64,000 nt of DNA from Ollibium composti (lineage in GTDB: Bacteria > Pseudomonadota > Alphaproteobacteria > Rhizobiales > Rhizobiaceae), in assembly GCF_004801285.1 (NCBI RefSeq), contig NZ_SSNY01000006.1, positions 124,001 to 188,000 on the forward strand, in the 5' to 3' direction. A program made the position numbers and the translations under genes. This document shows positions 19,792 through 36,259 of the stretch, in pieces (within the stretch, counting starts at the first letter, position 1; every line of letters starts with the position of its first letter). Below the pieces are notes generated by a model. The model worked only from the letters and a program-made list of their open reading frames with translations. It did not search any database and was not told the DNA's origin.

Positions 19792-20580
19792 TCAACGCCG
19801 GCGCTGCACCAGGAAGGCGACCGTCGCCAGGACGACGGAGACGATCATGATCAGCGTCGATATGGCGTTGAGCTGCGGCGACACGCCCTGCTTTATCAGC
19901 GAGAAGATGTAGACCGGCAAGGTGGTGGCGCCGCCGGAATTCAACAGGTTGCTGGTGATGAAATCGTCCATCGAGATGACGAAGGCGAGCATCGCCCCGC
20001 TGAATACGCCCGGCATGATCAGCGGCAGCGTCACGCGCCGGAACGCCACCCAGCCGGACGCGTAGAGATCGCGCGCCGCCTCCTCCAGGTCGGCGTCCAT
20101 GCCTTGCAGGCGCGCGCGGATGGGCAGGAAGGCGAAGGGGATGCAGAAGGTGGTGTGGGCAATCATCAGCTTCAGCAGGCCGCTGGTCAGGCCGAGCTCG
20201 GAAAACAGGATCAGCACGGCGACGGCGACGACGATCTCCGGCAGCAGCAGCGGCAGGTTGACGATGGTCTCGGAGGCGCGGCGGAAACGCACTTGCCTGC
20301 CGCGGACGATCACAAGGGCGGCCATCAGCGCAACGACGATCGACAGGGTGGTGGCGACGGCGGCGACCAGCAGCGACGTCTTGACCGCGCCGACGAGGGC
20401 CGCGTTCGACAGGGCGGTCGAATACCAGTGCAGCGAGAAGCCGCCCCAGTTGGCGACGATGCGGTTGGCGTTGAAGGAATAGAACACCACCACCGCGATC
20501 GGCAGGTAGAGATAGACGAAGAACAGCACACTCAGCGGGCCGAAGCCGGGATAGCGCCGCACGTCCGAATTGCCGCTCAT
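19792..20580 (-). CDS. ABC transporter permease, PotC/PotI type
   Basis: A 262-residue inner-membrane protein with six predicted helices. The cytoplasmic EAA loop reads EEAARDLYASGWVAFRRVTLP, which docks on the ATPase. Sequence and position are those of the second permease of polyamine ABC importers. It overlaps the preceding permease gene by 4 bases. Confidence 0.9.
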   Translation of the reverse strand: MSGNSDVRRYPGFGPLSVLFFVYLYLPIAVVVFYSFNANRIVANWGGFSLHWYSTALSNAALVGAVKTSLLVAAVATTLSIVVALMAALVIVRGRQVRFRRASETIVNLPLLLPEIVVAVAVLILFSELGLTSGLLKLMIAHTTFCIPFAFLPIRARLQGMDADLEEAARDLYASGWVAFRRVTLPLIMPGVFSGAMLAFVISMDDFITSNLLNSGGATTLPVYIFSLIKQGVSPQLNAISTLIMIVSVVLATVAFLVQRRR

Positions 20581-21476
20581 GCCGCCGCCTCCGCTCTTTC
20601 CCTGCGGATCGCACGCAGGCCGCGCCAGACGAGGAAGACGAGCACGGCCGCCATCAGCACGATGGAGATGGCGGCGCCCAGCGGCCAGTTGCGGGCGGCG
20701 CCGAACTGCAGCTGGATGAGGTTGCCCATCATCATCGTCTTGCCGCCGCCGAGCAGGATCGGCTCCAGCACCGCACCCAGGCAGGGCACGAAAACCAGGA
20801 TGGAGCCGGCCATCATGCCCGGCCGGCAGAGCGGCAGGATGACCCTGCGCAAGGTCGTCAGCCGGCTTCCATAGAGATCGTGCGAGGCCTCGACCAGCGC
20901 CGGATCGAGCTTTTCGATCGAGGCGAAGATCGGCAGGATCATCAGCGGAATATAGGAGTAGACGAGGCCGATCAGCATGGCCGTGTCGGTGAACAGCAGA
21001 CTGCCCATGTTATCGACCAGTCCCAGCGCGTGCAGGGTCTTGGCGATGACGCCGTCGTTGCCGAGGATGATGATCCAGGAATAGACGCGCACGATCATCG
21101 ACACCCAGAAGGGCAGCGTGACCAGATAGATCAAAAGCATCTTCGCCGTCGCCTTCTGCAGCGAGATGAAATAGGCCACCGGAAACGACAGGAGCAGGCA
21201 GATGAAGGTGGTCGCCGCGGCCAGGATCATGGTCCGGGCGACGACGATCAGATATTGCGGGTTGAACTCCAGCTCGCCGGTCCAGCCCTCGTTGAACAGG
21301 ATCTGCCGGTAGGGCGCGGTGGTGAAGACATAGTCGAAGCCGCCATAGGGGCCGCGCGTCGAGAACGACACCAGGACGATGATGCCGACCGGCACGATCA
21401 GCGTGGCGAGCATGATCAGTTGCGCCGGCAGCAGGCCGAGCACGTTCCAGCGGGCGTTTCTCGCCTCGGCGTTCAT
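20577..21476 (-). CDS. ABC transporter permease, PotB/PotH type
   Basis: A 299-residue inner-membrane protein with about six helices. The EAA loop is [21 protein letters not shown] (about 205-225). A relatively long periplasmic stretch follows the first helix, as in PotB/PotH. It overlaps both its upstream ATPase gene and downstream permease gene by 4 bases, so the three are co-translated. Confidence 0.9.
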
Positions 21477-22564
21477 GCTCCCAGGATCCTAACGGATTCG
21501 GCGGCGAAGCTCACCTTGATCGGCTGGCCGACTTCGAACATGCGGCCGCGCGAAGCGGCGTTGCGCTTGGAGACGCGCAGCTTCGCGGCACCCGTATCGA
21601 CGACATAGTAGGTGTAGCCGCCGAGATAGTTGGCGCCCTCGATGGTGCCGTCGACAGCGATCTGGCCGGGCCGCGCCGGCAGGCTGATCTTTTCCGGACG
21701 GATCGACATCCAGGCCTGCCCGCCTACCGCCGCCCGCTTCTGCGGCGCGCTGAGCGTCACGCCGAGCGGCGTCGAGACCGTTGCGTTGTCGCCGTCCACG
21801 GAAAGGACGCCGGCTTCCAGGAAGTTGGTTTCGCCGATGAAGTCGGCGACGAAGCGGTTGGACGGCTCCTCGTAGATTGCGGCCGGCGTGCCGATCTGCT
21901 GGATCTCGCCGTCGCCGAGCACGCAGATGCGGTCCGACATGTCCAGCGCTTCTTCCTGATCGTGGGTGACGAAGACGAAGGTGATGCCGGTCTGGCGCTG
22001 CAGCGTGCGCAACTCGTCGCGCATCGCCTGCCTGAGCTTGAGGTCCAGCGCCGACAGCGGCTCGTCGAGCAGCAGCACTTCCGGCTCTGGGGCCAGCGCC
22101 CTTGCAAGCGCGATGCGCTGGCGCTGGCCGCCCGAGAGCTGCTGCGGCCTGCGTGCCGCGAACTGCTCCATGTGCACGAGACGCAGCATGTCGGCGACGC
22201 GCGCCTCGCGGCGCTCCTTCGCCCAGCCGAGGTTTTCCAGCCCGAAGGCGACGTTCTGGCTGAGCGTCATGTGCGGAAACAGCGCGTAGCTCTGGAACAC
22301 CGTGTTGACGCGGCGCTTGTGCGGCGGCAAGCCCCTGATGTCGGCGCCGCGCAGCAGGATCTCGCCGCCGGAAGGTTGTTCGAAGCCGGCGATCATGCGC
22401 AGCAAGGTTGTCTTGCCGCAGCCCGAAGGCCCCAACAACGTGAAGAACTCGTTCTCGCGGATGTCGAAGGTGACCGGCTTCAGCGCCTGATAGCTGCCGA
22501 AGCTCTTCGACACGCCCCTGATCTCGACGGCCTTGGCCTGCTCAGACGAGCCGTTGTTGTCCAT
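21473..22564 (-). CDS. ABC transporter ATPase, PotA type
   Basis: A 363-residue ATPase. Walker A is GPSGCGKTT, the Q-loop is in [13 protein letters not shown], the signature is [15 protein letters not shown], Walker B is [11 protein letters not shown] and the switch His is in [14 protein letters not shown]-terminal TOBE domain follows, as in PotA. I chose the ATG at 22562-22564; a longer TTG-initiated reading adds 11 residues with no homology support. It begins the four-gene transporter run, about 100 bases after the BCAA-type binding protein gene on the same strand. Confidence 0.92.
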
Positions 22565-22663: not shown

Positions 22664-23794
22664 TTATTGCTTGACCCACTTGCCGTCCTTGACGGCGTAG
22701 GTGTCGATGACGACGTTCATCTCGATCTGGCCGTTCTCGTCGAAGGAGATGTTGCCGAGGATGCCGTCGTGATGCATCTCGCGGATTGCCTTGCTCAGCG
22801 CCTCCTTGTCCTCGATGCCCTTTTCCTTGATCGCCTCGAGCAGGATCTGGGCGGCCTCATAGGCGTATTTCGCATAGGAGCCGGCCGGCTCGGCATACTT
22901 CTTGGCTTCATAGGCCTTGTAGAAGGCGTCGAGCTTGGGGTTGTTCTGGTCCGCCGGGATGCCGACGATGGTGCCTTCGGCCGCCTTGCCGGCGATCTCG
23001 ATGAACTTCGGATCGTAGATGCCGGAAATGCCGTACATCGGTAGCGAGCCCATGCCGAGATCGGCCATCTGGCTGCGCACCAAAGCTGCTTCGGTCACCA
23101 CGCCGCCGAAATAGACGGCGTCGGGCGACGCCGCCTTGGCCGTCGTCAGCATGGCGCGGAAATCGGTGGTGCCGACCGCCGCCGCGTCGGAAAAGACGAT
23201 CTCGCCGCCGGCGGCCTTGAAGAAGTCGCCGAACCACTTGGTGTTGGCCGCGCCATAGTCGGTGGTGTCGGAAATGATGGCGATCTTCTTGACCTTGCCC
23301 TCCTTGGCGATCGCGTCGGCGAGCGGCTTGTTCTCATTGACGAGGGTCGGCGTCACCCGCGTGACGTTGGGCATGTTCTGGTCGGTGATTTTCGGGCTGA
23401 CCGCGCCCCAGACGATGAAGGGCATCTGCGCGCGGTTGAAGATCGGCATCGTCGCCAAGGCCACAGGGCTGTTCCAGTGGCCGGTCGCGGCGACGACGGC
23501 CGGATCGTTGATCAGTTTCTGCGCGGCCGAGACGCCGACGGCGGGATCGGAAGCGTCGTCGAGCACGACGGCTTCCACCTGATGCGGGTAGCCGCTTTCG
23601 TTGGCCTGGTCGATGGCGAGCAGGAAACCGTTGCGGGCGCCGAGCCCCTGCTGGGCGTTGCCGCCCGAAAGCGGCCCGATGAAGCCGAGCTTGATCTGGT
23701 CGGCTCGGGCCTGGGCAACGCCCAGCGAGACGGCGAGCACGGCGCCGGCCAGCATCGACGAGACACGAATGAACACGGTTCTCCGGTTCTGCAT
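22664..23794 (-). CDS. branched-chain amino acid-type ABC transporter substrate-binding protein
   Basis: A 376-residue periplasmic receptor (Peripla_BP_6/LivJ type). The signal peptide covers about residues 1-32 (MLAGAVLAVSLGVAQARA). The mature protein starts DQIKLGFIGPLSGGNAQQGLGARNG, followed by VVLDDASDPAVGVSAAQKLI and TGHWNSPVALA. The family carries amino acids, amides, urea and aromatic acids. I started it at the ATG 23792-23794; the open frame extends far upstream only as a shadow of livH. It diverges from its presumed permease genes, with a shared 192-bp promoter region. Confidence 0.9.
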   Translation of the reverse strand: MQNRRTVFIRVSSMLAGAVLAVSLGVAQARADQIKLGFIGPLSGGNAQQGLGARNGFLLAIDQANESGYPHQVEAVVLDDASDPAVGVSAAQKLINDPAVVAATGHWNSPVALATMPIFNRAQMPFIVWGAVSPKITDQNMPNVTRVTPTLVNENKPLADAIAKEGKVKKIAIISDTTDYGAANTKWFGDFFKAAGGEIVFSDAAAVGTTDFRAMLTTAKAASPDAVYFGGVVTEAALVRSQMADLGMGSLPMYGISGIYDPKFIEIAGKAAEGTIVGIPADQNNPKLDAFYKAYEAKKYAEPAGSYAKYAYEAAQILLEAIKEKGIEDKEALSKAIREMHHDGILGNISFDENGQIEMNVVIDTYAVKDGKWVKQ

Positions 23795-23986: not shown

Positions 23987-24892
23987 ATGGCGGAACTGCT
24001 CATCCAGCAAGGCCTGAACTGGATCACCCTCGGCTGCATCTATGCGCTGCTGGCGATCGGCTTCAGCCTGATCTTCGGTGTCCTCAACGTCATCCACTTC
24101 TCGCATGGCGACGTCGCCATGACGGCGCCCTTCATCTGCCTGGCGCTGGCGACCGCCTTCGGCGCGACGAGTCCGACCTGGCTGGTTCTCGCGCTGGTCA
24201 TCGCGATCCTCGCCGTCGGCCTCATCGGCGTCGTCCTTGACCGGGTCGTCATCCGCCAGTTCCGCGACGCGCCGGCGATGATGGCGCTGGTGTCGACGGT
24301 AGCGCTCGGCATCGTCATCCGCGAATCGATCCGCCACCTCTATCCGGAAGGCTCGAACCCGCATGCCTTCCCGCGACTGGTCTCGGGCGTCGCCTTCGAG
24401 ATCGCCGGCGTGCCGGTGAACTGGTTCGCGCTGCTGGTGACGGTGCTGACCGTCGTTTTGATCGGATTGCTGTTCGTCTTCCTGCGCATGACGCCGCTCG
24501 GCCTGCGCATCCGGGCCGCCTCCGAGGACCGGGTGGTGGCGCGCATGATGGGCATCCGCGACGGGCGCGTCTTTCGCGCCACCTTCTTCATCGCCTCCGC
24601 CATCGGCGCCATCGCCGGGTTGCTGTTCGCCAGCTATGCCGGGGTGACGCGCTTCGATTTCGGCATCATGGCCGGCCTGCTCGGCTTTTCGGCGGCGGTG
24701 ATCGGCGGCCTGGGTTCGATGCCGGGCGCCATCCTCGGCGGCCTCATCATCGCCGGCATCGAGGTGCTGGCGCAGACCTTCGTGCCGGACGGCGCCTCCT
24801 ACCGCCTCGTCTTCGTCTTCGTGCTCGTCATCGTGGTGCTGGTCTTCCGCCCCGCCGGCCTGCTCGGCCGCCCCCTCATGGAAAAGGTGTAG
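23987..24892 (+). CDS. branched-chain amino acid-type ABC permease (LivH family)
   Basis: A 301-residue inner-membrane protein with about eight hydrophobic segments. It begins MAELLIQQGLNWITLGCIYALLAIGFSLIFGVLNVIHFSHGD, the classic LivH opening. It ends with GLGSMPGAILGGLIIAGIEVL and VFRPAGLLG. Starts at 23930 and 23978 are in frame; 23987 gives the family N-terminus. Its stop is one base before the livM-like ATG. Confidence 0.92.
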   Translation: MAELLIQQGLNWITLGCIYALLAIGFSLIFGVLNVIHFSHGDVAMTAPFICLALATAFGATSPTWLVLALVIAILAVGLIGVVLDRVVIRQFRDAPAMMALVSTVALGIVIRESIRHLYPEGSNPHAFPRLVSGVAFEIAGVPVNWFALLVTVLTVVLIGLLFVFLRMTPLGLRIRAASEDRVVARMMGIRDGRVFRATFFIASAIGAIAGLLFASYAGVTRFDFGIMAGLLGFSAAVIGGLGSMPGAILGGLIIAGIEVLAQTFVPDGASYRLVFVFVLVIVVLVFRPAGLLGRPLMEKV

Positions 24893-24893
24893 C

Positions 24894-26084
24894 ATGCAGG
24901 CCGAAGCTTCCGCCGTCGCGGCTTCCCCGGCAACGCCAAGCAAGGCGGCGGCCGCCGCCTTCGTCGTCCTCTCGCAACTCGGCGGCGCGGCGTTCCTCTA
25001 TTTCCTGCTGAAGGCCGACGGCGGCTGGCAGGTCGTTGGCCTGCTCGCCGTGCTCGGGCTTGGCTTCACTCTTCTGGAAAAATTCCCGCAGGTCGCGGAG
25101 TTCGCCAGGGCGAGCCTCGCCAGCCTGCCGCTTCTCACTATCGCGGTGGCGGCCGTGGTGGTCGTGGCGTTTCCGTTCGCCGTCGGCTCCAACACCTACA
25201 TGCTGCACCTTCTGATCGTGGCGCAGCTCTACGCCGTGCTGGCGCTGGCGCTCAACTTCCAGCTCGGCAGCGCCAATATTCCCAATTTCGCCACCGGCGC
25301 CTCCTACGGCATCGGCGCCTATGTCTCGGCGCTGCTCGCCATCAACTTCGGCCTGAGCTTCTGGCTGACGCTGCCGCTCGCGGCGCTGGCCGCGACGCTG
25401 TTCGGCTTCGTCATCGGCATCCCCTCGATGCGGACGCGCGACACCTATCTCGCGCTGGTCACCATCGCCTTCGGCGTCGTGGTGCAGCAGCTTCTCAACA
25501 ATTTCGATTTCACCGGTGGCCCCAACGGGCTGGTCGGCATTCCGGCGCCAAGCCTGTTCGGCCATTCCTTCGCCGACCCACTGGTGATCTTCGGCCACAA
25601 GCTACCCAGCCAGGCCAATTTCTACTATCTCTCGGCGGCACTGGTGGTGGTGGCCATCGTCACCGCGCACCGGCTGCACGGCTCGCGCATCGGACTTGCC
25701 TGGAACGCGCTGCGCGCCGACGAGATCGCGGCGCGGGCGCAAGGCATCAACGTCGCCTGGTTCAAGGTGCTGGCCTTCGCGGTCGATGCCTTCCTCGCCG
25801 CCTTCGCCGGCACCATCTACGCCTTCTATGTCTCCTACATCTCGCCCGACAACTTCACCTTCCTCGTCTCCGTCACCATCATGACGATGGTCATCGTCGG
25901 CGGCATGGACAACATCTTCGGCGTCATCGTCGGCGCCTTCCTGCTCACCATCCTGCCGGAAAAGCTGCGCGCCTTCTCCGACTACCGGCTGCTGTTCTTC
26001 GGCGTCGTCATCATCGGCTTCCTGATGATCCGGCCGCAGGGCCTGTTCCCGCAGCGCATGCGCAGCTACGGAGGCCGTTCGTGA
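24894..26084 (+). CDS. branched-chain amino acid-type ABC permease (LivM family)
   Basis: A 396-residue membrane protein. About 75 extra N-terminal residues (two helices) precede the LivM core that starts near LLIVAQLYAVLALALNFQLG. The core shows NFATGASYGIGAYVSALLA and the EAA-like RGSRIGLAWNALRADEIAA-type loop. The C-terminus ends FLMIRPQGLFPQRM. The gene overlaps the LivG-type gene by 4 bases (GTGA). Confidence 0.92.
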   Translation: MQAEASAVAASPATPSKAAAAAFVVLSQLGGAAFLYFLLKADGGWQVVGLLAVLGLGFTLLEKFPQVAEFARASLASLPLLTIAVAAVVVVAFPFAVGSNTYMLHLLIVAQLYAVLALALNFQLGSANIPNFATGASYGIGAYVSALLAINFGLSFWLTLPLAALAATLFGFVIGIPSMRTRDTYLALVTIAFGVVVQQLLNNFDFTGGPNGLVGIPAPSLFGHSFADPLVIFGHKLPSQANFYYLSAALVVVAIVTAHRLHGSRIGLAWNALRADEIAARAQGINVAWFKVLAFAVDAFLAAFAGTIYAFYVSYISPDNFTFLVSVTIMTMVIVGGMDNIFGVIVGAFLLTILPEKLRAFSDYRLLFFGVVIIGFLMIRPQGLFPQRMRSYGGRS

Positions 26085-26866
26085 GCGCGCTTCTGACGGT
26101 CGAGGGCGTCACCATGCGCTTCGGCGGGCTGGTGGCGGTCAACAACGTCGGCTTCTCGCTGGCGAAGGGCGCGGTGCTTTCGGTGATCGGCCCGAACGGT
26201 GCCGGCAAGTCGACGCTGTTCAACGTCATTACCGGCGTCTACAAGCCGACCGCCGGCACGGTGACGTTCGCCGGCGCCGAGATCACCGGCAAGCCCGCCT
26301 ACGACGTCGTCGAGCGCGGCATCGCCCGCACCTTCCAGTCGTCGCGCCTGTTCGGCGACCTCAGCGTGCTCGACAATGTCATCATCGGCATGCACACGCG
26401 CACCCGCACCGGTGTGCTCGACGCGCTGTTCCGTCCCGCGGCATCGAAGCGCGAGATGGCCGCCTGCGTCGCCAAGGCCGAGGCGCTGCTCAAGGCCGGC
26501 TCCGGCGACCTCTACGACCAGCGCTACCGCCCTGCCGGCGCGCTGGCGCAGGCCGACCGGCGGCGGCTGGAGATCGCCCGCGCGCTGGCCTCCGAACCGA
26601 AGCTGCTTTTGCTCGACGAGCCTTCCGTCGGCATGGACGAAACAGAGACGGACGCCCTGGTCGCCGACATCAGGCGGCTGCGGGTGGAAAATCCGGAGCT
26701 GGCGGTGATCCTGATCGAGCACGACATGCGGGTGGTCGAGGCCTTCCCCGACAACGTCATGTGCATCGACTACGGCAGCAAGATCGCCGAAGGCAGCTTC
26801 GCCACTGTCCGCAGCGATCCGCGTGTCCAGGAAGCCTATCTCGGAAAGGCGGCGGCCGATGCTTGA
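26081..26866 (+). CDS. branched-chain amino acid-type ABC ATPase (LivG family)
   Basis: A 261-residue ATPase with Walker A GPNGAGKSTLFN, Q-loop RTFQSSRLF, Walker B LLLLDEPSVGMD and switch HDMRVV. The signature region reads GALAQADRRRLEIARAL, with ALAQAD in place of the usual LSYGQQ; LivG members tolerate variation here. Starts at GTG 26081. It overlaps the next gene by 8 bases. Confidence 0.92.
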   Translation: MSALLTVEGVTMRFGGLVAVNNVGFSLAKGAVLSVIGPNGAGKSTLFNVITGVYKPTAGTVTFAGAEITGKPAYDVVERGIARTFQSSRLFGDLSVLDNVIIGMHTRTRTGVLDALFRPAASKREMAACVAKAEALLKAGSGDLYDQRYRPAGALAQADRRRLEIARALASEPKLLLLDEPSVGMDETETDALVADIRRLRVENPELAVILIEHDMRVVEAFPDNVMCIDYGSKIAEGSFATVRSDPRVQEAYLGKAAADA

Positions 26867-27560
26867 GCTGAAGGACGTGGACACCGCCTATGGCGCGGTG
26901 CCGATGCTGCGCGGCGTCACCATCAGCGTCAGGCCCGGTGAACTGGTCTGCCTGCTCGGCCCCAATGGCGCCGGCAAGACGACGACCTTCATGACCGTGT
27001 GCGGCGTCGTCAAGGCGCAGCGCGGCAAGGTCGAGGTGATGGGCAAGGACATCGCCGCGCTCGGCACGGAAAACCTTGCAGCGCTCGGCGTCGGTCTCGT
27101 GCCGGAAGGGCGGCGGCTGTTCCCCGGCCTGACCGTGCAGGAGAACCTGCGCCTCGGCTACGACGCCGTTTCCGGCAGGGGACCCGATTTCGAGCCCCAA
27201 CTGGAAAAGATGTGCGCGCTGTTCCCGCGCATCCGCGAGCGGCTGCGCCAGGCGGCGGGCACGCTCTCGGGCGGCGAGCAGGCAATGGTGGCGCTGGCAC
27301 GCGCGCTGATCGGCGAGCCGAAGATGGTGGTGATGGACGAGCCGTCGCTCGGCCTGTCGCCCAAGCTGATCGGCGAATATTTCGAGATCACGCAGGAAAT
27401 CCACCGCCACGGTACCACCGTGCTTCTGATCGAGCAGAACGCCGAAATGGGGCTCGGCATCGCCGACCGCGGCTACGTGCTGGTCAAGGGCAAGGTGGCG
27501 CAGGAGGGACCGGCCAGGGAGCTTCTGGCGTCGAGGACGGCGCGCAGCCTCTACCTTTAG
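26859..27560 (+). CDS. branched-chain amino acid-type ABC ATPase (LivF family)
   Basis: A 233-residue ATPase: Walker A GPNGAGKTTT, EGRRLFPGLTVQENL typical of LivF, signature LSGGEQAMVALARAL, Walker B VVMDEPSLGLSP, and LLIEQNAEMGL. The ATG at 26859 gives the expected MLELKDVDTAYG start; an upstream start at 26823 runs inside the LivG-type gene. It closes the transporter genes; the monooxygenase gene starts 156 bases later on the same strand. Confidence 0.92.
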   Translation: MLELKDVDTAYGAVPMLRGVTISVRPGELVCLLGPNGAGKTTTFMTVCGVVKAQRGKVEVMGKDIAALGTENLAALGVGLVPEGRRLFPGLTVQENLRLGYDAVSGRGPDFEPQLEKMCALFPRIRERLRQAAGTLSGGEQAMVALARALIGEPKMVVMDEPSLGLSPKLIGEYFEITQEIHRHGTTVLLIEQNAEMGLGIADRGYVLVKGKVAQEGPARELLASRTARSLYL

Positions 27561-27716: not shown

Positions 27717-29009
27717 ATGTCGGTTGAAACGGTAGACACGCTCGTTGTCGGCGCTGGCCAGGCGGGTGTGGCCATGAGCGAGCACCTGAGCAAGTGCGGC
27801 GTGCCCCATCTCGTGCTCGAACGGCACCGCATCGCCGAGCGGTGGCGCTCCGAGCGGTGGGATTCGCTGGTCGCCAACGGCCCGGCCTGGCACGACCGCT
27901 TCCCAGGCATGGAGTTCCCCCGCACCGATGCCGACGGCTTCGCGCCGAAGGAAGAGGTGGCGGACTATTTCGTTGCTTATGCCGAAAAGATCGGCGCGCC
28001 CATCCGCTGCGGCGTGGAGGTGAAGGAGGTGCGCCGCAACGTCGGCCGCGCCGGCTTCCGCGTCGAGACTTCGCAGGGCGTGATCGAGGCGCGCAACGTC
28101 GTCGCCGCCACCGGGCCGTTCCAGCGCCCCGTCTGGCCGAACCTCGTTCCCGAGACGGCGGGCCTGATGCAGATGCACTCCAACAACTACCGCAATCCCG
28201 GCCAGTTGCCCGAGGGTGCCGTGCTGGTGGTCGGCGCCGGGTCCTCGGGCGTGCAGATCGCCGACGAATTGCTGCGCGCCGGCAAGCGCGTCTATCTGTC
28301 AGTCGGACCCCACGACCGCCCGCCCCGCGCCTATCGCGGGCGTGACTTCTGCTGGTGGCTGGGCGTGCTCGGCAAATGGGACATGGAGACACCAGGTCCC
28401 GGCACCGAGCATGTGACGATCGCCGTGAGCGGCGCGCGCGGCGGCGAGACGATCGACTTCCGCCGCCTGGCTCAGCAGGGAATGACGCTCGTCGGCCTCA
28501 CCGAATCCTACAAGGACGGCTTGATGCGCTTTGCGCCCGACCTTGGCAAAAACGTCGCGCGCGGCGACGCCAACCTGATGTCGCTGCTCGACGAGGCCGA
28601 CGCCTATGTCGCCCGCAACGGCATCGACCTGCCGGAGGAACCCGAGGCACGCACGATCGGGCCGGATCCGGACTGCCTGAAGAACCCCATCCTCGAACTC
28701 GACATCAAGGAGGCCGGCATCACCTCGATCATCTGGGCGACCGGTTACGCGGTCGACTACGGCTGGCTGAAGGTCGACGCCTTCGACGAGAAGGGCCGGC
28801 CGAAACACCAGCGCGGCGTCTCGGCCGAGCCCGGCATCTATTTCCTCGGCCTGCCGTGGCAGTCGCGCCGGGGCTCCAGCTTCATCTGGGGCGTCTGGCA
28901 CGACGCCAAGCACCTCGCCGACCGCATTTCCACGCAGGGCAAGTATCTGGCCTATCACGCGGCCGCGAACCGCAAGGACGCAGACCTGGCCCGCGCCGCG
29001 AACGGCTGA
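27717..29009 (+). CDS. NAD(P)/FAD-dependent flavoprotein monooxygenase (CzcO/FMO-like)
   Basis: A 430-residue flavoprotein with two dinucleotide folds: GAGQAG (12-17) for FAD and GAGSSG (173-178) for NAD(P)H. Between them lies MHSNNYR (153-159), corresponding to the H-x-x-x-Y part of the FMO/Baeyer-Villiger fingerprint. IIWATGYAVDYGWL is the late ATG motif. Such enzymes oxygenate soft nucleophiles (N, S) or ketones. The gene follows livF-like and precedes Rid, DUF1028 and aldehyde dehydrogenase genes in one direction, suggesting it starts oxidation of the imported compound. A hairpin CCCCGC/GCGGGG (27677-27696) lies just upstream. Confidence 0.88.
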   Translation: MSVETVDTLVVGAGQAGVAMSEHLSKCGVPHLVLERHRIAERWRSERWDSLVANGPAWHDRFPGMEFPRTDADGFAPKEEVADYFVAYAEKIGAPIRCGVEVKEVRRNVGRAGFRVETSQGVIEARNVVAATGPFQRPVWPNLVPETAGLMQMHSNNYRNPGQLPEGAVLVVGAGSSGVQIADELLRAGKRVYLSVGPHDRPPRAYRGRDFCWWLGVLGKWDMETPGPGTEHVTIAVSGARGGETIDFRRLAQQGMTLVGLTESYKDGLMRFAPDLGKNVARGDANLMSLLDEADAYVARNGIDLPEEPEARTIGPDPDCLKNPILELDIKEAGITSIIWATGYAVDYGWLKVDAFDEKGRPKHQRGVSAEPGIYFLGLPWQSRRGSSFIWGVWHDAKHLADRISTQGKYLAYHAAANRKDADLARAANG

Positions 29010-29086
29010 GCGGCAAGGCGAGCCGAAACCCTTTCACGGGCATGCGCAGAACGGCGCGTGCCCGATCCACCCCGACGGAGAGCACC

Positions 29087-29500
29087 ATGGCGCATACGAG
29101 AATCCGCAAGTTCAACACCAAGGACACCTATCCCGAGCAGAAGCTGGACAACGACTTGTGCCAGGCGGTGGTGGCGCGCGGCACGACGATCTTCCTGCGC
29201 GGCCAGTGTCCGCAGGACCTCGACACCGCAAAGGACATCGGCAGCCACGATCCGGTCGAGCAGACCCACAAGGTCATGCAGAACATCAGGCAGCTCATCG
29301 AGGAAGCCGGCGGCAAGATGGAACACCTGGTCAAGGTGGTGGTCTACATCACCGACGTGCGCCACCGCGAGGCGGTCTACCGCACCATGGGCGAATACAT
29401 CAAAGGCGTGCATCCCGTCTCAACCGGGCTGGTGGTGACCGCGCTCGCCCGTCCCAACTGGCTGGTCGAGATCGACGGCACGGCCGTCATTCCGGACTGA
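29087..29500 (+). CDS. RidA (YjgF/YER057c/UK114) family protein, Arg-less variant
   Basis: A 137-residue Rid-fold protein with the family core EQTHKVMQNIRQLIEEAGGKMEHLVKVVVYITD and C-terminal WLVEIDGTAV. Canonical RidA uses Arg105 (in PARS) to hydrolyse enamines and imines. By eye that position is Ser112 here (HPVSTG), so canonical 2-aminoacrylate deaminase activity is unlikely. Arg-less subfamilies often sit in catabolic operons with dedicated substrates. It ends 5 bases before the DUF1028 gene. Confidence 0.9.
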   Translation: MAHTRIRKFNTKDTYPEQKLDNDLCQAVVARGTTIFLRGQCPQDLDTAKDIGSHDPVEQTHKVMQNIRQLIEEAGGKMEHLVKVVVYITDVRHREAVYRTMGEYIKGVHPVSTGLVVTALARPNWLVEIDGTAVIPD

Positions 29501-29505
29501 GCGCC

Positions 29506-30180
29506 ATGACCTTCTCGATCGTCGCGCGCTGCGCCAAGACCGGCATGTTCGGTGTCGCCGTTTCCTCCTCCTCGCCGGCGGTTGCGGCGCGCTGCGCCTA
29601 TGCGCAGGCGAAAGTCGGTGCCGTCGCCAGCCAGAACGTCACCGACCCGACGCTGGGGACGCGCGGGCTGGAGCTGATGGCGCGCGGCGCGTCCGCCACC
29701 GAGGCCGTCGCCATCCTGAAACGCACCGGCGCCTATCCCGAATACCGGCAGGTGCTGGCGGTCGACGCGAACGGCATCAGCGCCATTCATTCCGGCCCGA
29801 AGGCGCTCGGCACCTGGGCCGAGGCGCGGGCGGAAAACGTCGCCTGCGGCGGCAACCTGCTTGCCCATGACGGCGTGCCGCAAGCCATGGTCGAGGCGTT
29901 CCTCGCCTCCGAAGGCCATCTCGGCGACCGCATCGTCGCCACCATGCGTGCCGCGCTGAAGGCCGGCGGCGAGGCCGGCCCGGTGCGCTCGGCCGGCATG
30001 AAGCTGGTGCGGGACGTCGCCTGGCCGGTCGCCGACCTGCGCTGCGACTGGACCGAGGGCTGCCCGATCGAGGAACTGGCGACGATCTGGGAGATCTACA
30101 AGCCGCAGCTCGACGCCTACGTGACCCGCGCCCTCAATCCCTCCGACGCGCCGAGCTACGGCGTGCCCGGCGACGAATAG
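29506..30180 (+). CDS. DUF1028 protein, candidate Ntn-type hydrolase
   Basis: A 224-residue protein with the DUF1028 opening TFSIVARCAKTGMFGVAVSSSSPAVAARC. It continues with GAVASQNVTDPTLGTRGLELM and WPVADLRCDWTEGCPIEEL. I recall that DUF1028 belongs to the Ntn-hydrolase clan. Consistent with that, residue 2 is Thr, which Met removal would expose as an N-terminal nucleophile. No reaction is established to my knowledge; amide hydrolysis is an inference. It is tightly linked to the Rid gene (5 bp) and the aldehyde dehydrogenase gene (29 bp). Confidence 0.88.
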   Translation: MTFSIVARCAKTGMFGVAVSSSSPAVAARCAYAQAKVGAVASQNVTDPTLGTRGLELMARGASATEAVAILKRTGAYPEYRQVLAVDANGISAIHSGPKALGTWAEARAENVACGGNLLAHDGVPQAMVEAFLASEGHLGDRIVATMRAALKAGGEAGPVRSAGMKLVRDVAWPVADLRCDWTEGCPIEELATIWEIYKPQLDAYVTRALNPSDAPSYGVPGDE

Positions 30181-30209
30181 CCGACGACACCAAGCGAGCA
30201 GGAGCCGTC

Positions 30210-31700
30210 ATGAGCGAACTCGGCCATAAGGACTGGATCGGCAAGGCGGCGGCGATCCGCTTTCGCGACAAGGCCTTCATCGACGGCAAACCGGTCGCCG
30301 CGCGCTCGGGCCGCACCTTCGCCAGCATCAACCCGGCAACCGGCGGGACCTTGGCGGAAGTCGCCTCCTGCGGCGAGGAGGACATCGACCTTGCCGTCGC
30401 CGCGGCGCGGCGCAGCTTCGAAAGCGGCGTCTGGTCGCGCGCCGCGCCAGCGCACCGCAAGGAGGTGCTTCTGCGGCTCGCAGCACTGCTGCGCGAAAAC
30501 CTGCATGAGCTGGCGCTCCTGGAGTCGCTCGACATGGGCAAGCTGGTCAACGACGCCGCGACCGTCGACGTGCCGGGCTCGGCGGCGATCTTCCAGTGGT
30601 ACGCGGAGGCCATCGACAAGCTCTACGACGAGGTCGCCCCGACTGGCACCGGCAATCTTGCCCTTGTGCGCCGCGAGCCGCTCGGCGTCGTCGGTGCCGT
30701 TGTGCCGTGGAACTTCCCGCTCGACATGGCGACATGGAAATGCGCGCCGGCGCTCGCCGCCGGCAATTCGGTGGTGCTGAAGCCGGCCGAGCAGTCGCCC
30801 TTCTCGGCGCTCAGGCTGGCGGAACTCGCCATGGAGGCGGGACTGCCCGCCGGCGTCCTCAACGTCGTGCCGGGGCTCGGCGAAACCGCCGGCCAGGCGC
30901 TCGGCCGCCATATGGACGTCGACTGCCTCGCCTTCACCGGCTCGACGGCCGTGGGCAAGATGTTCCTGCAATATTCCGGGCAGTCGAACATGAAGCAGGT
31001 CTGGCTGGAGACGGGCGGCAAGAGCCCCAACCTGGTCTTCGCCGATTGCAGCGATCTCGATGCGGCGGCCGACATGGCGGCCTTCGGCATCTTCTTCAAC
31101 CAGGGCGAGGTCTGCTCGGCGAACTCGCGCCTGCTCGTGCAGCGGAGCGTCAAGGACGCGCTGGTCGACAAGCTGGTGCAGCGCGCCGCAAGCATGCAGC
31201 CCGGCGATCCTCTCGACCCGGCCTCGAAGATGGGGGCCATGGTCGACGCCGGCCACACCGCCAACGTCATGCGCTTCATCGAGGCCGGCCGGAAGACGGC
31301 GCGGCTGGTTGCCGGCGGCGACCAGGTCAGCGTCAACGGGCGCGGCAGCTTCGTGCGGCCGACCATCTTCGACGACGTCGCGCCGAACGACGTGCTGGCC
31401 CGCGACGAGATCTTCGGCCCGGTGCTTGCCGTCGTCGCCTTCGACGACGAGGACGAGGCCATCCGCATCGCCAACGACAGCGTCTACGGGCTGGCCGCAT
31501 CCGTGTGGACGGACAGCCTGTCGCGCGCCCACCGCATCGCCGAGCGGCTGAGAGCCGGCACGGTTTCGGTCAACACCGTGGATGCCTTGAGCCCGATGAC
31601 ACCCTTCGGCGGATTCAAGCAATCGGGCTTCGGCCGCGACCTGTCGCTGCACGCCTTCGACAAGTACACGGCACTGAAGACGACCTGGATCAAGTATTGA
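30210..31700 (+). CDS. aldehyde dehydrogenase, PuuC-like
   Basis: A 496-residue NAD(P)-dependent enzyme. Key motifs are the NAD-binding VVPWNFPLDMATWK, FTGSTAVGK, the general base Glu in LETGGKS and the nucleophile Cys in NQGEVCSANSR. Extended similarity (WYAEAIDKLYDEVAP, SNMKQVWLE, GGFKQSGFGRD) recalls PuuC, which oxidises gamma-glutamyl-gamma-aminobutyraldehyde. A 4-aminobutyraldehyde-like product would fit the amine-type transporter in the island. A clear AGGAG precedes the ATG. It ends the monooxygenase-Rid-DUF1028 run. Confidence 0.92.
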   Translation: MSELGHKDWIGKAAAIRFRDKAFIDGKPVAARSGRTFASINPATGGTLAEVASCGEEDIDLAVAAARRSFESGVWSRAAPAHRKEVLLRLAALLRENLHELALLESLDMGKLVNDAATVDVPGSAAIFQWYAEAIDKLYDEVAPTGTGNLALVRREPLGVVGAVVPWNFPLDMATWKCAPALAAGNSVVLKPAEQSPFSALRLAELAMEAGLPAGVLNVVPGLGETAGQALGRHMDVDCLAFTGSTAVGKMFLQYSGQSNMKQVWLETGGKSPNLVFADCSDLDAAADMAAFGIFFNQGEVCSANSRLLVQRSVKDALVDKLVQRAASMQPGDPLDPASKMGAMVDAGHTANVMRFIEAGRKTARLVAGGDQVSVNGRGSFVRPTIFDDVAPNDVLARDEIFGPVLAVVAFDDEDEAIRIANDSVYGLAASVWTDSLSRAHRIAERLRAGTVSVNTVDALSPMTPFGGFKQSGFGRDLSLHAFDKYTALKTTWIKY

Positions 31701-31750: not shown

Positions 31751-32686
31751 ATGCCGCTCCGTTTCACGCTCAGACAACTGGAATACTTCGTCGCCGTGGG
31801 CGAAGCCGGCTCCATCGCCAAGGCGGCCGAGCAGGTCAACGTCTCGCCGCCGTCCATCTCGGCCTCCATCGCGCAGCTGGAAACCGAGTTCGGCGTCCAG
31901 CTCTTCGTGCGCAAGCATTCGCACGGCCTGTCGCTGACGGCCGGCGGGCGTGTCTTCCTGAAGGAGGCGGCGCGGCTGCTCGCCGACGCCGAGGCGCTGC
32001 ACGACATCGCCGGCGACATCGCCGACAAGGTGCGCGGCCCGCTGGCCATCGGCTGCCTGCTGACCTTCGCGCAGATCGTCCTGCCGGCGCTGCGGCTGAA
32101 GTTCGAGCAGGTCTATCCGGACGTGCGCGTCAGGCAGCTGGAGCGCGACCAGGGCCAGTTGCTGCAGATGCTGCAGACCGGCGAGATCGACGCGGCACTG
32201 ACCTACGACCTCGAATTGTCGCAGGACATCACCTTCGAACCGCTGATGGTGCTGCCCGCCTACGCCATGCTGCCCGCCAACCACCGCTTCGCCGGCAAGA
32301 CGGTGCTGACCGCGGAGGAACTGGTAGACGAGCCGATGGTGCTGCTCGACCTGCCGTTCAGCCGCGAATACTTCCTCTCCACCTTCCAGCAGAAGGGGTT
32401 GCGGCCCAACATCGCCGAGCGCACCGGCGATATCGCGGTGATGCGCTCGATGGTGGCCAACGGCTTCGGTTACGGCATCGCCAACATGCGCCCGCTCAAC
32501 ACCATGTCGCCCGACGGCAAGCCGCTGGTGTTCGTGCCGATCAAGGGCGATATCCGACCCCTCACCATGGGCGTGCTCCTGCCCAATGCCGAGCACCGCA
32601 CGCAAACCGTGCAGGCCTTCATCGACCATTGCCGCCGCTTCGTCGCCGAGCAGGGCGTGTTCGGCATCGAGCGCGTGGTGAGGTAG
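31751..32686 (+). CDS. LysR-family transcriptional regulator
   Basis: A 311-residue regulator. The N-terminal winged helix reads FTLRQLEYFVAVGEAGSIAK and VSPPSISASIAQLE. A periplasmic-binding-like effector domain follows from about residue 90. The ATG at 31751 is taken because the LysR core starts four residues later. It lies 50 bases after the aldehyde dehydrogenase gene and is convergent with the M20 gene. The palindrome in the divergent argE-like/TMADH-like promoter has LTTR geometry and could be its target. Confidence 0.9.
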   Translation: MPLRFTLRQLEYFVAVGEAGSIAKAAEQVNVSPPSISASIAQLETEFGVQLFVRKHSHGLSLTAGGRVFLKEAARLLADAEALHDIAGDIADKVRGPLAIGCLLTFAQIVLPALRLKFEQVYPDVRVRQLERDQGQLLQMLQTGEIDAALTYDLELSQDITFEPLMVLPAYAMLPANHRFAGKTVLTAEELVDEPMVLLDLPFSREYFLSTFQQKGLRPNIAERTGDIAVMRSMVANGFGYGIANMRPLNTMSPDGKPLVFVPIKGDIRPLTMGVLLPNAEHRTQTVQAFIDHCRRFVAEQGVFGIERVVR

Positions 32687-32739
32687 GCCAGCCGCCCTGC
32701 CCGCCCAAGCGCGTCGCGATCTTTCAGATTCGCTCCGTA

Positions 32740-32764
32740 CCCGAAACCGGTTCCCACTTTCGGG
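32740..32764. repeat. REP-like palindromic element, copy 1
   Basis: CCCGAAA (32740-32746) and TTTCGGG (32758-32764) flank a core shared with copy 2: AAACCGGTTCCCACTTT (32744-32760). It lies in the 87-bp gap between convergent LysR and M20 genes and could also terminate transcription. It resembles small intergenic palindromes frequent in Rhizobiales genomes, as I recall them. Confidence 0.65.
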
Positions 32765-32773
32765 AGACATGCT

Positions 32774-33931
32774 TCAGGCAATACCGGCGGCGAGCCGCTC
32801 CACGAGCTTGTCCAGCATGTCGTCGCACCGGCGCATCTGTTCGACGCCGACGAATTCGTCCGGCTTGTGGCCCTGCGCCATCGAGCCCGGCCCGCACACC
32901 ACCGTCGGCGTGCCGACATCGCGGCTGAACAGGCCTCCCTCCGTGCCGAAGGCCACCTTGATGGTGCCGTTCGCGCCGATGAGCGATTTCACGAAGGCGA
33001 CGGCCTCGGAATTCGTCGGCGTGTCGAGACCCGGATAGGTGTTGAAGACCTCGATGTCGATCGCCGCTTCCGGCGCGATGGAAGACGCCTCGGAGGCGAT
33101 GCGCGCGGCTTCCTTCCTGATCCGTTCAAGGATCGCCTCGGCATTGTCGGCGGCGATATTGCGGATCTCGAAATCGATCCGGCACAGGTTCGGCACGATG
33201 TTGAGCGCGACGCCGGCATTCATCCTGCCGACATGCACGGTGGTGTAGGGAATGTCGTAGTCACCGTCGCGCGCGCCGTCGCGGGTCAGCCGTTCCTGCT
33301 CCTTGCGCAAGGCGGCGACGAAATCACAGCCGAGGTGGATGGCGTTGAGAGCGAGCGGCGCCAGCGCCGAATGGCCTTCCCGCCCCCTGCAGATGGCGTG
33401 CGCGCCGATCTTGCCCTTGTGACCGGTGGCGACCTGCATCGCCGTCGGCTCGCCGACGATACACAAAGCCGGCTTTTGCGGCGCGGCGCGAAGCATCTCG
33501 ACCAGGCTGCGCACGCCGATGCAGCCGATCTCCTCGTCGTAGGAAAGCGCCAGATGCAGCGGCGTCTTCAATTCCATCTTCGCGGCCTTGAGCGCCGCCG
33601 CGAGGGCGCTGGCGACGAAACCCTTCATGTCGGCGGCGCCGCGCCCGTAAAGCTTGCCGTCGCGCGCGGTCATCTCGAACGGCGGCAGCGTCCAGTCCTG
33701 CCCGTCGACGGGAACGACGTCGGTGTGGCCGGACAGCATGACGCCGGCGCCACCCGCCGGTCCGATCGTGGCAAAGAGGTTCGCCTTGTGGCCATCCTCG
33801 CTGTGGATGATCTGCGATGCGATGCCATGGGCCTCGAGCAGGCCGGCCACGTAGGAGATCAGGTCGAGGTTGGAGTCCCGGCTCACCGTCGGGAAGGCGA
33901 TGAGCCTTTCAAGGATTTCGATGCTGTCCAT
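32774..33931 (-). CDS. M20-family deacylase (acetylornithine deacetylase/ArgE-like)
   Basis: A 385-residue di-zinc amidohydrolase. Metal and catalytic residues are visible in SGHTDVVPVDG, YGRGAADMKGF, SYDEEIGCIG and VGEPTAMQ, with a late His in GHKPDEF. Family members remove acyl groups from amino acids such as N-acetylornithine. In this setting it more likely deacylates an intermediate of the island's pathway. The ATG at 33929-33931 has AGAGG at good spacing; ATGs up to 33967 are possible. It diverges from the TMADH-like gene. Confidence 0.88.
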   Translation of the reverse strand: MDSIEILERLIAFPTVSRDSNLDLISYVAGLLEAHGIASQIIHSEDGHKANLFATIGPAGGAGVMLSGHTDVVPVDGQDWTLPPFEMTARDGKLYGRGAADMKGFVASALAAALKAAKMELKTPLHLALSYDEEIGCIGVRSLVEMLRAAPQKPALCIVGEPTAMQVATGHKGKIGAHAICRGREGHSALAPLALNAIHLGCDFVAALRKEQERLTRDGARDGDYDIPYTTVHVGRMNAGVALNIVPNLCRIDFEIRNIAADNAEAILERIRKEAARIASEASSIAPEAAIDIEVFNTYPGLDTPTNSEAVAFVKSLIGANGTIKVAFGTEGGLFSRDVGTPTVVCGPGSMAQGHKPDEFVGVEQMRRCDDMLDKLVERLAAGIA

Positions 33932-34045
33932 GCTCGCGACCTCTTTTGTTCCGGTCATGTCTAGCATCCTGCCACGGCGATCCGAAACTCGCTTTTGACG
34001 ACGCGCGGCATCGCCGCATCTTAATCCGCACCGCCGGTGGCACCC

Positions 34046-34062
34046 ATTAGGACCCTCCTAAT
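34046..34062. promoter_or_regulatory. LysR-type palindrome in divergent promoter
   Basis: ATTAGGA-CCC-TCCTAAT is a perfect 7-bp inverted repeat with T-N11-A geometry, the usual LTTR box. It lies in the 258-bp region between the divergent M20 and TMADH-like genes. Binding by the LysR product of the nearby gene is inferred. Confidence 0.6.
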
Positions 34063-34189
34063 CGATGCAGAAGAAAACTTTTGTTTCCCGCTCCGTCGCA
34101 CAATCTAAGAGTGACGGCGCCATCCGGCTTCACGTCCGCGGCCACGGCTTCGCCGTGCCGGACCCGCCGCGACAGCAGGAGGAGTTTCC

Positions 34190-36259
34190 ATGCGCGACCC
34201 ACGCTACGATATCCTGTTCGAGCCGATGAAGATTGGCCCGCATGTCGCGAAGAACCGGTTCTACCAGGTGCCGCACTGCAACGGCGGCGGCTATCGCGAT
34301 CCTTCTGCGGCGGCGGCCATGCGCGGCATCAAGTCCGAGGGCGGCTGGGGCGTCATCTTCACCGAGCAGACCGAGATGCACCACACCTCGGAGATTACCC
34401 CCTTCATCGAGCTGCGCCTGTGGGAGGACCAGGATATCCCCGGCCTTCGCCGCATGTCCGACGCCATGAAGGTGCATGGCGCGCTCGCCGGCATCCAGCT
34501 CGCCTATTCCGGCATCAACGGCCCGAATTTCTATACCAAGGAAGTGCCGCTCGCCCCGTCCGCGCTGCCGATCCGCACCTTCACCAACGATCCGGTGCAG
34601 GCCCGCGCGCTCGACCTCACCGACATCAAAAATCTCCGCCGCTGGTTCGTCAACGCGGCGAAGCGCTCGAAGATCGCCGGCTTCGACCTGATCTGCCTCT
34701 ACGGCGCCCACGGCTTCGGCATCTTCCAGCATTTCCTGTCGCGTGCCACCAACCAGCGCACCGACGAATATGGCGGCAGCCTGGAAAACCGCTCGCGCTT
34801 CGCCCGCGAGGTGGTGGCCGATATCCGCGAGGCGGTCGGCGACACGACCGCGATCACCATGCGCGTCAGCCTCGACGAGACGATCGGCGAACTCGGTTTT
34901 TCCAACGCTGAGGTCCGCGAGTTCGTCGCAATGAACGCCGACCTTCCGGACCTTTGGGATCTCGCCCACGGCGCCTGGGAGGATTGCTCCGGCCCCTCGC
35001 GCTTCAAGGAAGAGGCTGCGCAGGAGCTGCTGGTCAAGGGCATCCGCGAACTGTCGTCAAAGCCGGTCGTCGGCGTCGGCCGTTTCACCTCGCCGGACGT
35101 CATGGTGAGGATGATCAAATCCGGCACGCTCGACTTCATCGGCTGCGCCCGGCCTTCCATCGCCGATCCGTTCCTGCCGAAGAAGGTCGAGGAAGGCCGC
35201 ATCGAGGACATCCGCGAGTGCATCGGTTGCAACATGTGCATCACCGGCGACATGACCATGTCGATCTCGCGCTGCACGCAGAACCCGACCTTCATGGAGG
35301 AGTGGCGCAAGGGCTGGCACCCCGAACGCATGCAGGCCAAGGGTGACAGCGAGAGCGTGCTGATCGTCGGCGCCGGTCCGGCCGGACTGGAAGCGGCACG
35401 GGCGTTGGGCTTGCGCGGCTATCAGGTGGCGCTGGCCGAAGCCGGCACCGAGCTTGGCGGACGCGTGGCGCGCGAATGCAGGCTGCCGGGGCTCTCGGCC
35501 TGGGGCCGCGTGCGCGACTATCGCCAGTACCAGATCGGCAAGATGGCGAATGTCGACGTCTATTTCGACAGCCGGCTCACCGCCGACGACATCCTCGCCT
35601 TCGGCTTCCAGAACGTGGCGATTGCCACCGGCTCGACATGGCGACGCGACGGCGTGGCGCGCGCCCATGTCGTGCCGATGCCGATTGACCCCGCCATGCC
35701 TGTCTACACCCCCGACGACCTGATGGACGGCAAGGCGCCTTCCGGCAACGTCGTGCTGTTCGACGACGACCATTACTATATGGGCGGCGTGCTGGCGGAA
35801 CTAATGGCGCGGCAGGGCGCGAAGGTCACGTTGGTGACGCCTTCCGCCTATGTCTCGGACTGGACCCGCAACACGCTGGAACAGGGCGCCATCCATCGCA
35901 GGCTGGCCGAACTGGGCGTCGAGATCGTGCTGAACCGTTCCGTGACGCGGATCGCCGGCGGCGGCGTCAAGACGGCCTGCGTCTATACCGGCACCGAACA
36001 GGAGATGGATGCCGATGCGGTGGTGCTGGTGGCCTCGCGCCAACAGAACGACGCGTTGTGGCAGGAGCTGAAGGGCCGCCGCGGCGAATGGGCCGACAAC
36101 GGCATCCGCTCGATCAGGGTGATCGGCGATGCCGAGGCGCCCGGACCCATCGCGTGGGCCACCTATGCCGGCCACCGCTTCGCGCGCGAGCTGGACGAAC
36201 CGGACATCGGCGACGCCCTGCCGTTCAGGCGGGAAGTGACGGCATTGGCGGCGGAATAG
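34190..36259 (+). CDS. trimethylamine dehydrogenase-like iron-sulfur flavoprotein
   Basis: A 689-residue protein of the TMADH/DMADH family. An N-terminal FMN barrel comes first, then a 4Fe-4S site (Cys344, 347, 350, 362 in CIGCNMC and RCTQN), then an ADP/FAD-like C-terminal domain (VLIVGAGPAGLEAA). Cys30 in FYQVPHC matches the Cys that binds FMN covalently in TMADH. The barrel Tyr and His (YGAH, 171-174) are kept. The substrate pocket differs: position 60 is Gln and the Trp355 equivalent is lost, so the substrate is probably not trimethylamine. It would oxidatively demethylate a secondary or tertiary amine and pass electrons to a flavoprotein acceptor. Confidence 0.9.
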   Translation: MRDPRYDILFEPMKIGPHVAKNRFYQVPHCNGGGYRDPSAAAAMRGIKSEGGWGVIFTEQTEMHHTSEITPFIELRLWEDQDIPGLRRMSDAMKVHGALAGIQLAYSGINGPNFYTKEVPLAPSALPIRTFTNDPVQARALDLTDIKNLRRWFVNAAKRSKIAGFDLICLYGAHGFGIFQHFLSRATNQRTDEYGGSLENRSRFAREVVADIREAVGDTTAITMRVSLDETIGELGFSNAEVREFVAMNADLPDLWDLAHGAWEDCSGPSRFKEEAAQELLVKGIRELSSKPVVGVGRFTSPDVMVRMIKSGTLDFIGCARPSIADPFLPKKVEEGRIEDIRECIGCNMCITGDMTMSISRCTQNPTFMEEWRKGWHPERMQAKGDSESVLIVGAGPAGLEAARALGLRGYQVALAEAGTELGGRVARECRLPGLSAWGRVRDYRQYQIGKMANVDVYFDSRLTADDILAFGFQNVAIATGSTWRRDGVARAHVVPMPIDPAMPVYTPDDLMDGKAPSGNVVLFDDDHYYMGGVLAELMARQGAKVTLVTPSAYVSDWTRNTLEQGAIHRRLAELGVEIVLNRSVTRIAGGGVKTACVYTGTEQEMDADAVVLVASRQQNDALWQELKGRRGEWADNGIRSIRVIGDAEAPGPIAWATYAGHRFARELDEPDIGDALPFRREVTALAAE

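Follow-up and report, generated by a model that had tools for sequence, protein, structure and literature searches.

Described histamine systems and the locus of Ollibium composti

Histamine catabolism has been described for Pseudomonas putida U and P. aeruginosa PAO1, where it is assigned to the hin genes (hinABCD, hinFLHG, hinIJ and hinK) (PMC8231116, PMC6467879). In this set HinF is an FAD-monooxygenase (EC 1.14.13.5), HinL an enamine deaminase, HinH an amidase, HinG an amidase of EC 3.5.1.8, HinD an aldehyde dehydrogenase and HinI an aspartate ammonia-lyase (PMC6467879). The gene order hinF-hinL-hinH-hinG corresponds to PA5393 to PA5390, and HinK is reported to be PA0218 in P. aeruginosa and to respond to imidazole-4-acetate (PMC8231116). 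Here we study a gene cluster in a stretch of 64,000 nucleotides from the alphaproteobacterium Ollibium composti (contig NZ_SSNY01000006.1, positions 124,001 to 188,000), which is called the window in the following and to which all coordinates refer.

With a probability of about 0.92 we regard this cluster as a histamine catabolic set, in which a histamine dehydrogenase, an aldehyde dehydrogenase (ALDH), an FMO-like FAD monooxygenase (FMO), a DUF1028 protein, a Rid protein and an M20 deacylase would lead to aspartate under the control of a HinK-like regulator. At the level of sequence this is supported by the identity of the dehydrogenase, by orthology with hinF, hinL, hinH, hinG, hinD and hinK and by conserved gene sets; the division of labour between the Rid and DUF1028 proteins, the choice of importer and the actual use of the pathway by O. 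composti are inferred.

Like the Pseudomonas hin genes, the cluster comprises an orthologous monooxygenase, Rid, DUF1028 and M20 protein, a HinD-like ALDH and a HinK-type LysR protein. In contrast to Pseudomonas, a histamine dehydrogenase is encoded instead of the aminotransferase HinC, ABC importers instead of the APC-type permease HinA adjoin the cluster, the genes form a single locus instead of several, and the M20 gene is inverted. There is also a likeness to the putative histamine pathway of cheese Brevibacterium, for which homologues of HinADFGHIL were found and a histamine oxidase was proposed in place of HinC (PMC6467879). However, the enzyme of this actinobacterium is a copper oxidase, while the one found here is a flavin dehydrogenase.

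Histamine dehydrogenase and the first steps

The gene at 34190-36259 (+ strand) encodes a protein of 689 amino acids which matches 6de6, the 'Histamine dehydrogenase' of Rhizobium sp., over residues 1-686 (phmmer, E=0, 1337.4 bits). The enzyme of Nocardioides simplex (3k30), also named histamine dehydrogenase, follows with 841 bits and trimethylamine dehydrogenase with 567 bits, and Pfam finds an Oxidored_FMN and pyridine-nucleotide domains. All 13 active-site or pocket residues that PMC10180351 lists for the enzyme of Rhizobium, Cys30 among them, are identical. In addition, cysteines 344, 347, 350 and 362 are present, which by analogy would hold the iron-sulfur cluster. Judged by these matches the protein is a histamine dehydrogenase, with a predicted 6-S-Cys-FMN and 4Fe-4S cluster. 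The two described proteins are known as enzymes and as a biosensor tool; PMC10180351 uses neither the word operon nor gene cluster nor pathway. Among the open reading frames (ORFs) of the cluster we saw no HinC-type aminotransferase, and the deamination step of HinC is likely to be covered by the dehydrogenase.

The ALDH (30210-31700, + strand; PF00171, 558 bits) shares 71, 61 and 62% identity with the ALDH genes of three of the twelve HinK-bearing loci described below (L221, L227 and L228; L numbers are our locus labels). The initial annotation had called it PuuC-like. PuuC is indeed the nearest model, but the score of 638.6 bits stays below the cut-off of 850. The oxidation of an aldehyde by this enzyme remains part of the picture, while the proposed substrate of the aminobutyraldehyde type is replaced by imidazoleacetaldehyde.

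Regulator and orthology with the hin genes

The LysR protein encoded at 31751-32686 (+ strand) has its best PDB matches in 6m5f and 3fzv, with about 211 bits, the next best reaching 97.7, and is 39% identical to the sequence of these entries. We take both to be PA0218, the HinK protein. On this assumption the protein is likely to be a HinK-like regulator.

When 398 genomes of the phylum were searched with the regulator sequence of 6m5f/3fzv, 23 matched at E <= 1e-60. Twelve of these contain a HinK match of 56-89% identity, and in all twelve the FMO, Rid, DUF1028 and M20 genes follow each other in one run on one strand, with identities to the proteins of the window of 66-74% (FMO), 55-60% (Rid), 47-52% (DUF1028) and 46-49% (M20). 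Seven of the twelve are presumably Pseudomonas, given the regulator identity of 80-89%. Because the order of the run is that of hinF-L-H-G and orthologues are found in all twelve genomes, the FMO, Rid, DUF1028 and M20 proteins of the window are most likely HinF, HinL, HinH and HinG.

The FMO, Rid, DUF1028 and M20 proteins

The FMO (27717-29009, + strand) shows two GxGxxG motifs. Against TIGR04046 (MSMEG_0569) it reaches 365.8 bits, below the cut-off of 498.35. TIGR04046 flavoproteins, which presumably belong to nitrilase-linked clusters, are thus related to the HinF-type FMO, and this may hint at heteroaromatic substrates for them.

The Rid protein (29087-29500, + strand; PF01042) carries a serine at the position of the catalytic arginine of RidA-type proteins. 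In the 57 rows of our alignment this position is occupied by Ser 48 times, Cys eight times, Gly once and never by Arg, which Rid proteins require for the hydrolysis of 2-imino acids (PMC4433059). It is plausible that the protein acts on a C=N intermediate.

The DUF1028 protein (29506-30180, + strand; PF06267) scores 214.7 bits against a Pfam cut-off of 26.2, and Thr2 is kept in 66 of 66 sequences. Its predicted model (pLDDT 91.3) matches best the DUF1028 structure 2imh (TM 0.8), followed by proteasome subunits (TM about 0.4). An Ntn-hydrolase-like fold with Thr2 as putative N-terminal nucleophile is therefore likely on the basis of the model, and since the fold resembles 2imh and then proteasome subunits, it is reasonable that the protein opens an imidazolone ring; a cut at an amide-type bond is plausible. 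We found no open-access paper under DUF1028 or COG3342, although the literature may simply avoid these words.

The M20 gene (32774-33931, - strand) matches PRK07522 and TIGR01892. Because the names of these models say acetylornithine deacetylase, the assignment of its product as a deformylase rests on neighbourhood orthology with HinG and on context, by which it is most likely an N-formyl-L-aspartate deformylase.

The FMO, Rid, DUF1028 and ALDH genes all lie on the + strand, separated by 77, 5 and 29 bp, and the FMO gene starts 156 bp behind the end of LivF. This arrangement of four co-directional genes after a LivHMGF importer is as the initial annotation had it, and so are the families it named (FMO-like, Rid without the arginine, DUF1028 with Thr2). 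It had let the cassette end at 31700, but the cluster continues with the LysR, M20 and dehydrogenase genes at 31751-36259. Only FMO, Rid and DUF1028 are contiguous; the inverted M20 gene lies farther along, with ALDH and LysR in between.

The proposed pathway

According to this reading, histamine would enter by one of two flanking ABC importers, and the dehydrogenase would remove the amino group to give imidazole-4-acetaldehyde, which the ALDH would oxidise to imidazole-4-acetate. The FMO (HinF) would then hydroxylate the ring to imidazolone acetate, the DUF1028 protein (HinH) would open it to N-formimino-L-aspartate, the Rid protein (HinL) would hydrolyse the C=N bond to N-formyl-L-aspartate and the M20 protein (HinG) would release formate and L-aspartate. 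An aspartase encoded elsewhere would convert the latter to fumarate, and the HinK-like LysR protein would control the genes of the cluster.

The imidazoleacetate route consists of a monooxygenase step, ring opening, deimination and deformylation. In three plasmid records, from Aminobacter, Pseudohalocynthiibacter and Leisingera caerulea, a gene next to the cluster carries the annotation aspartate ammonia-lyase. These neighbours suggested aspartate as the end of the pathway, and with this end point the enzymes present agree with the imidazoleacetate route. This hypothesis, drawn from chemistry and the aspartase neighbours, preceded the match to histamine dehydrogenase.

There is a smaller yet real chance that the same enzymes act with the Rid and DUF1028 roles exchanged or otherwise different, Rid on the unstable hydroxy-imidazole or imine product of the FMO and DUF1028 on a formimino amide. 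PMC6467879 names HinL just 'enamine deaminase' and HinH just 'amidase' and gives no steps, and the Rid protein is without the arginine needed for 2-imino acids (PMC4433059). However, opening of the imidazolone ring is an amide hydrolysis and would suit the predicted Ntn-hydrolase-like fold of the DUF1028 protein, while removal of NH3 from the formimino group is a C=N hydrolysis, which fits Rid.

Conservation across genomes

A DUF1028 search in 297 genomes of the order gave matches of mixed subfamilies in 125. Loci were collected as neighbourhoods from this search, together with 15 annotated plasmid loci, the best 80 of 554 loci from named genomes and 20 loci from HinK-bearing genomes (L218-L237). 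From these, 171 distinct loci were chosen by similarity within the DUF1028 subfamily or, for L218-L237, by HinK, M20 or DUF1028 matches; L001-L032, L196-L217, matches below 43% identity or 90% coverage, short loci and three duplicates are left out of this count. The identity thresholds for neighbours were set by us, for loci other than those on annotated plasmids we predicted ORFs with a script of our own, and some family labels were given by eye.

The initial annotation expected its genes to stay together in other genomes and named the contrary as a possible refutation. They are indeed conserved together: Rid lies within 12 kb in 160 of the 171 loci, in 146 of them co-directional and no more than 300 bp away, and FMO is found within 12 kb in 121. 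At the same distance we counted M20 in 123 loci, LysR in 118, histamine dehydrogenase in 63 and this ALDH in 51, followed by HpaB (35), GMC (27), Rieske (24), LivF (16), class-III aminotransferase (7) and aspartase (4). FMO is also present in 58 of the 63 loci with the dehydrogenase. As a control, five loci of DUF1028 paralogues (<43%) have Rid once and FMO, HpaB, M20 and dehydrogenase never at the thresholds used. The second DUF1028 gene of the O. composti genome (contig C6:47874-48443) is 31% identical, and no Rid, FMO, HpaB, M20 or dehydrogenase gene reaches the thresholds in the 19 kb around it.

All five same-genus neighbours carry FMO, Rid, DUF1028, ALDH, LysR, M20 and dehydrogenase. In the 20 named Pseudaminobacter and Mesorhizobium loci, FMO and Rid are present in all, LysR, M20 and histamine dehydrogenase in 19 each and ALDH in 17; a GMC gene is found in 15 and LivF in five. 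Among the best 80 of the 554 named-genome loci the nearest named relative is Pseudaminobacter manganicus (DUF1028 94% identical), followed by a Mesorhizobium bin (93%). By this likeness the window would most likely belong to Mesorhizobium in a broad sense.

Observations that weigh against the histamine reading

Several observations weigh against this interpretation. On the side of the regulator, the other eleven HinK matches, that of O. composti among them, are only 39-41% identical, and in seven loci (L231-L237) from six of these weaker genomes FMO is found in four, with HpaB instead in three. As to conservation, a DUF1028 match occurs in six of the eight genomes of the genus, O. composti included, and is missing in two. 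Within 10 kb, the locus of P. manganicus (L106) shows FMO, Rid and DUF1028 alone; neither LysR nor M20, ALDH or dehydrogenase reaches the thresholds there. Of the 171 loci, 108 are without the dehydrogenase and 120 without this ALDH within 12 kb, so that different entry enzymes or different imidazoles must be used in many relatives.

The M20 gene is inverted relative to its neighbours, and its product exceeds the cut-offs of both acetylornithine deacetylase models (PRK07522, 520.5 against 412 bits; TIGR01892, 383.4 against 297.7 bits). An aspartase gene is seldom found nearby (4 of 171 loci), and the aspartase homologue of the O. composti genome is only 43% identical and not clustered (contig C3). 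The Liv importer is no fixed part of the locus either, LivF or the Liv set being found in two of five same-genus loci, five of the 20 named Pseudaminobacter and Mesorhizobium loci and 16 of the 171. A class-III aminotransferase that is 50% identical to the one in L221 lies on another contig of the genome, and the dehydrogenase therefore need not be the sole deaminating enzyme. Finally, histamine dehydrogenase slowly accepts agmatine and 1,3-diaminopropane (PMC10180351).

Other substrates and other pathways

The last point bears on a related amine or imidazole, such as agmatine, methylhistamine, histaminol or imidazole-lactate, as the physiological substrate instead of histamine, which we consider quite unlikely. 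With agmatine histamine dehydrogenase reaches about 10% of its rate on histamine (PMC10180351), and the GMC-type, Rieske and class-III aminotransferase genes counted above (near 27, 24 and 7 of the 171 loci), with GMC genes near 15 of the 20 Pseudaminobacter and Mesorhizobium loci, suggest several entry routes. However, monooxygenase, deaminase, amidase, deformylase and regulator make up the hin set, which was described for histamine, and no GMC or Rieske gene was seen among the ORFs of the O. composti cluster.

There is next to no chance that, as the initial annotation had it, the four genes form an undescribed pathway in which an imported amine is oxygenated by the FMO itself. Oxidation of amines is known for FMO-type enzymes, and the four genes alone name no substrate, but they are orthologous to hinF, hinL, hinH and hinD, with a histamine dehydrogenase and a HinK-like regulator adjoining. 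The degradation of an amine is borne out, whereas the FMO is most likely the third enzyme of the pathway, with imidazoleacetate as its substrate, the amine being taken by the dehydrogenase outside 27717-31700. Nor is the pathway undescribed, since the hin genes of Pseudomonas are already in the literature (PMC8231116, PMC6467879). What is known is the pathway; what is new is its version headed by the dehydrogenase, its spread in alphaproteobacteria and the variant with HpaB for FMO. Our literature searches gave no paper that connects histamine dehydrogenase with the hin genes, though such a link may be in print elsewhere.

Four further candidates were dropped: a homarine or N-methylpyridine pathway, whose gene set was left uncompared; pyrrole-2-carboxylate degradation, for which no pathway paper was found; a gamma-glutamyl-putrescine route, considered for the PuuC-like ALDH, as no glutamine-synthetase-like family was recognised among the frequent neighbours labelled by eye; and betaine demethylation, considered for Rieske and 'OYE' neighbours, as the 'OYE' is the histamine dehydrogenase. 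Leisingera carries a separate set of genes for DUF1185, an alpha/beta hydrolase, a flavin reductase, an LLM monooxygenase, an ALDH and a GntR regulator directly upstream of the cluster (L101:2091-6919, L195:3637-8767), which looks like a separate N-heterocycle pathway.

Variants with other oxygenases

The oxygenase beside Rid and DUF1028 is not always an FMO. FMO is the only one in 117 of the 171 loci and HpaB the only one in 31; four loci have both and 19 neither. HpaB, in many cases accompanied by a flavin reductase of the HpaC type, replaces FMO next to Rid and DUF1028 in L053, L055, L057, L059, L062-L068, L077, L082, L105 and others. Only two of the 31 HpaB-only loci have the dehydrogenase (L068 and L127, the latter known from the locus alone), and none has this ALDH. 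A HinF-grade FMO is absent from 24 of the 31 HpaB-bearing genomes searched, eight of which have matches of 38-42% only and 16 none; the remaining seven have an FMO match of 65-81%, which in one genome lies in the HpaB locus itself and in two is interrupted by stops. When genome G027 is excluded, whose HpaB match is weak (38%), 23 of 30 genomes are without a HinF-grade FMO. The HpaB loci may start from imidazoleacetate or another imidazole.

One or two Rieske oxygenase genes are found near FMO and Rid in L133, L135, L138, L140, L157, L167 and L186, and it is possible that these inserted genes provide an entry for methylated imidazoles. In 15 loci a type II dehydroquinate dehydratase-like gene lies beside Rid and DUF1028 (for example L046, L048, L050, L051, L192, L193, L194, L130 and L161), most of those listed having in addition hydroxypyruvate-reductase-like, quinone oxidoreductase and GST genes.

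We tentatively suggest, well short of an even chance, that Rid, DUF1028 and M20 form a portable module for the ring opening of oxidised imidazoles, which is combined with interchangeable oxygenases: a HinF-type FMO, HpaB with a flavin reductase, or a Rieske enzyme.

Flanking transporter genes

The LivHMGF-type importer (23987-27560, + strand) is a candidate histamine importer by its position. It comprises LivH (23987-24892) and LivM (24894-26084), both with PF02653, and LivG (26081-26866) and LivF (26859-27560), which were read from the ORFs. A LivK-type binding protein (22664-23794, - strand; PF13458, 196.5 bits) is encoded divergently from LivH. Pot-type ABC transporter genes at 19792-22564 (- strand), recognised by eye from the ORFs, represent a second candidate importer, with an ATPase at 21473-22564 and permeases at 20577-21476 and 19792-20580. 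Import via a flanking ABC system is plausible. In 83 of the 171 loci an ABC ATPase at least 38% identical to the Pot-type one is encoded no farther than 12 kb away, a loose threshold which also includes taurine- and nitrate-type ATPases.

Meaning of the cluster

The cluster ties histamine dehydrogenase, an enzyme in wide use for biosensors, to its likely physiological pathway. It also offers a substrate class for a DUF1028 subfamily and an arginine-less Rid subfamily with uninformative database names, and suggests that in this context 'acetylornithine deacetylase' and 'PuuC-like' are misleading labels. If the idea of a portable module is true, a swap of the first oxygenase would let bacteria degrade imidazoles other than histamine. 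The results also suggest that many mesorhizobia use histamine and that some marine roseobacters do so as well.

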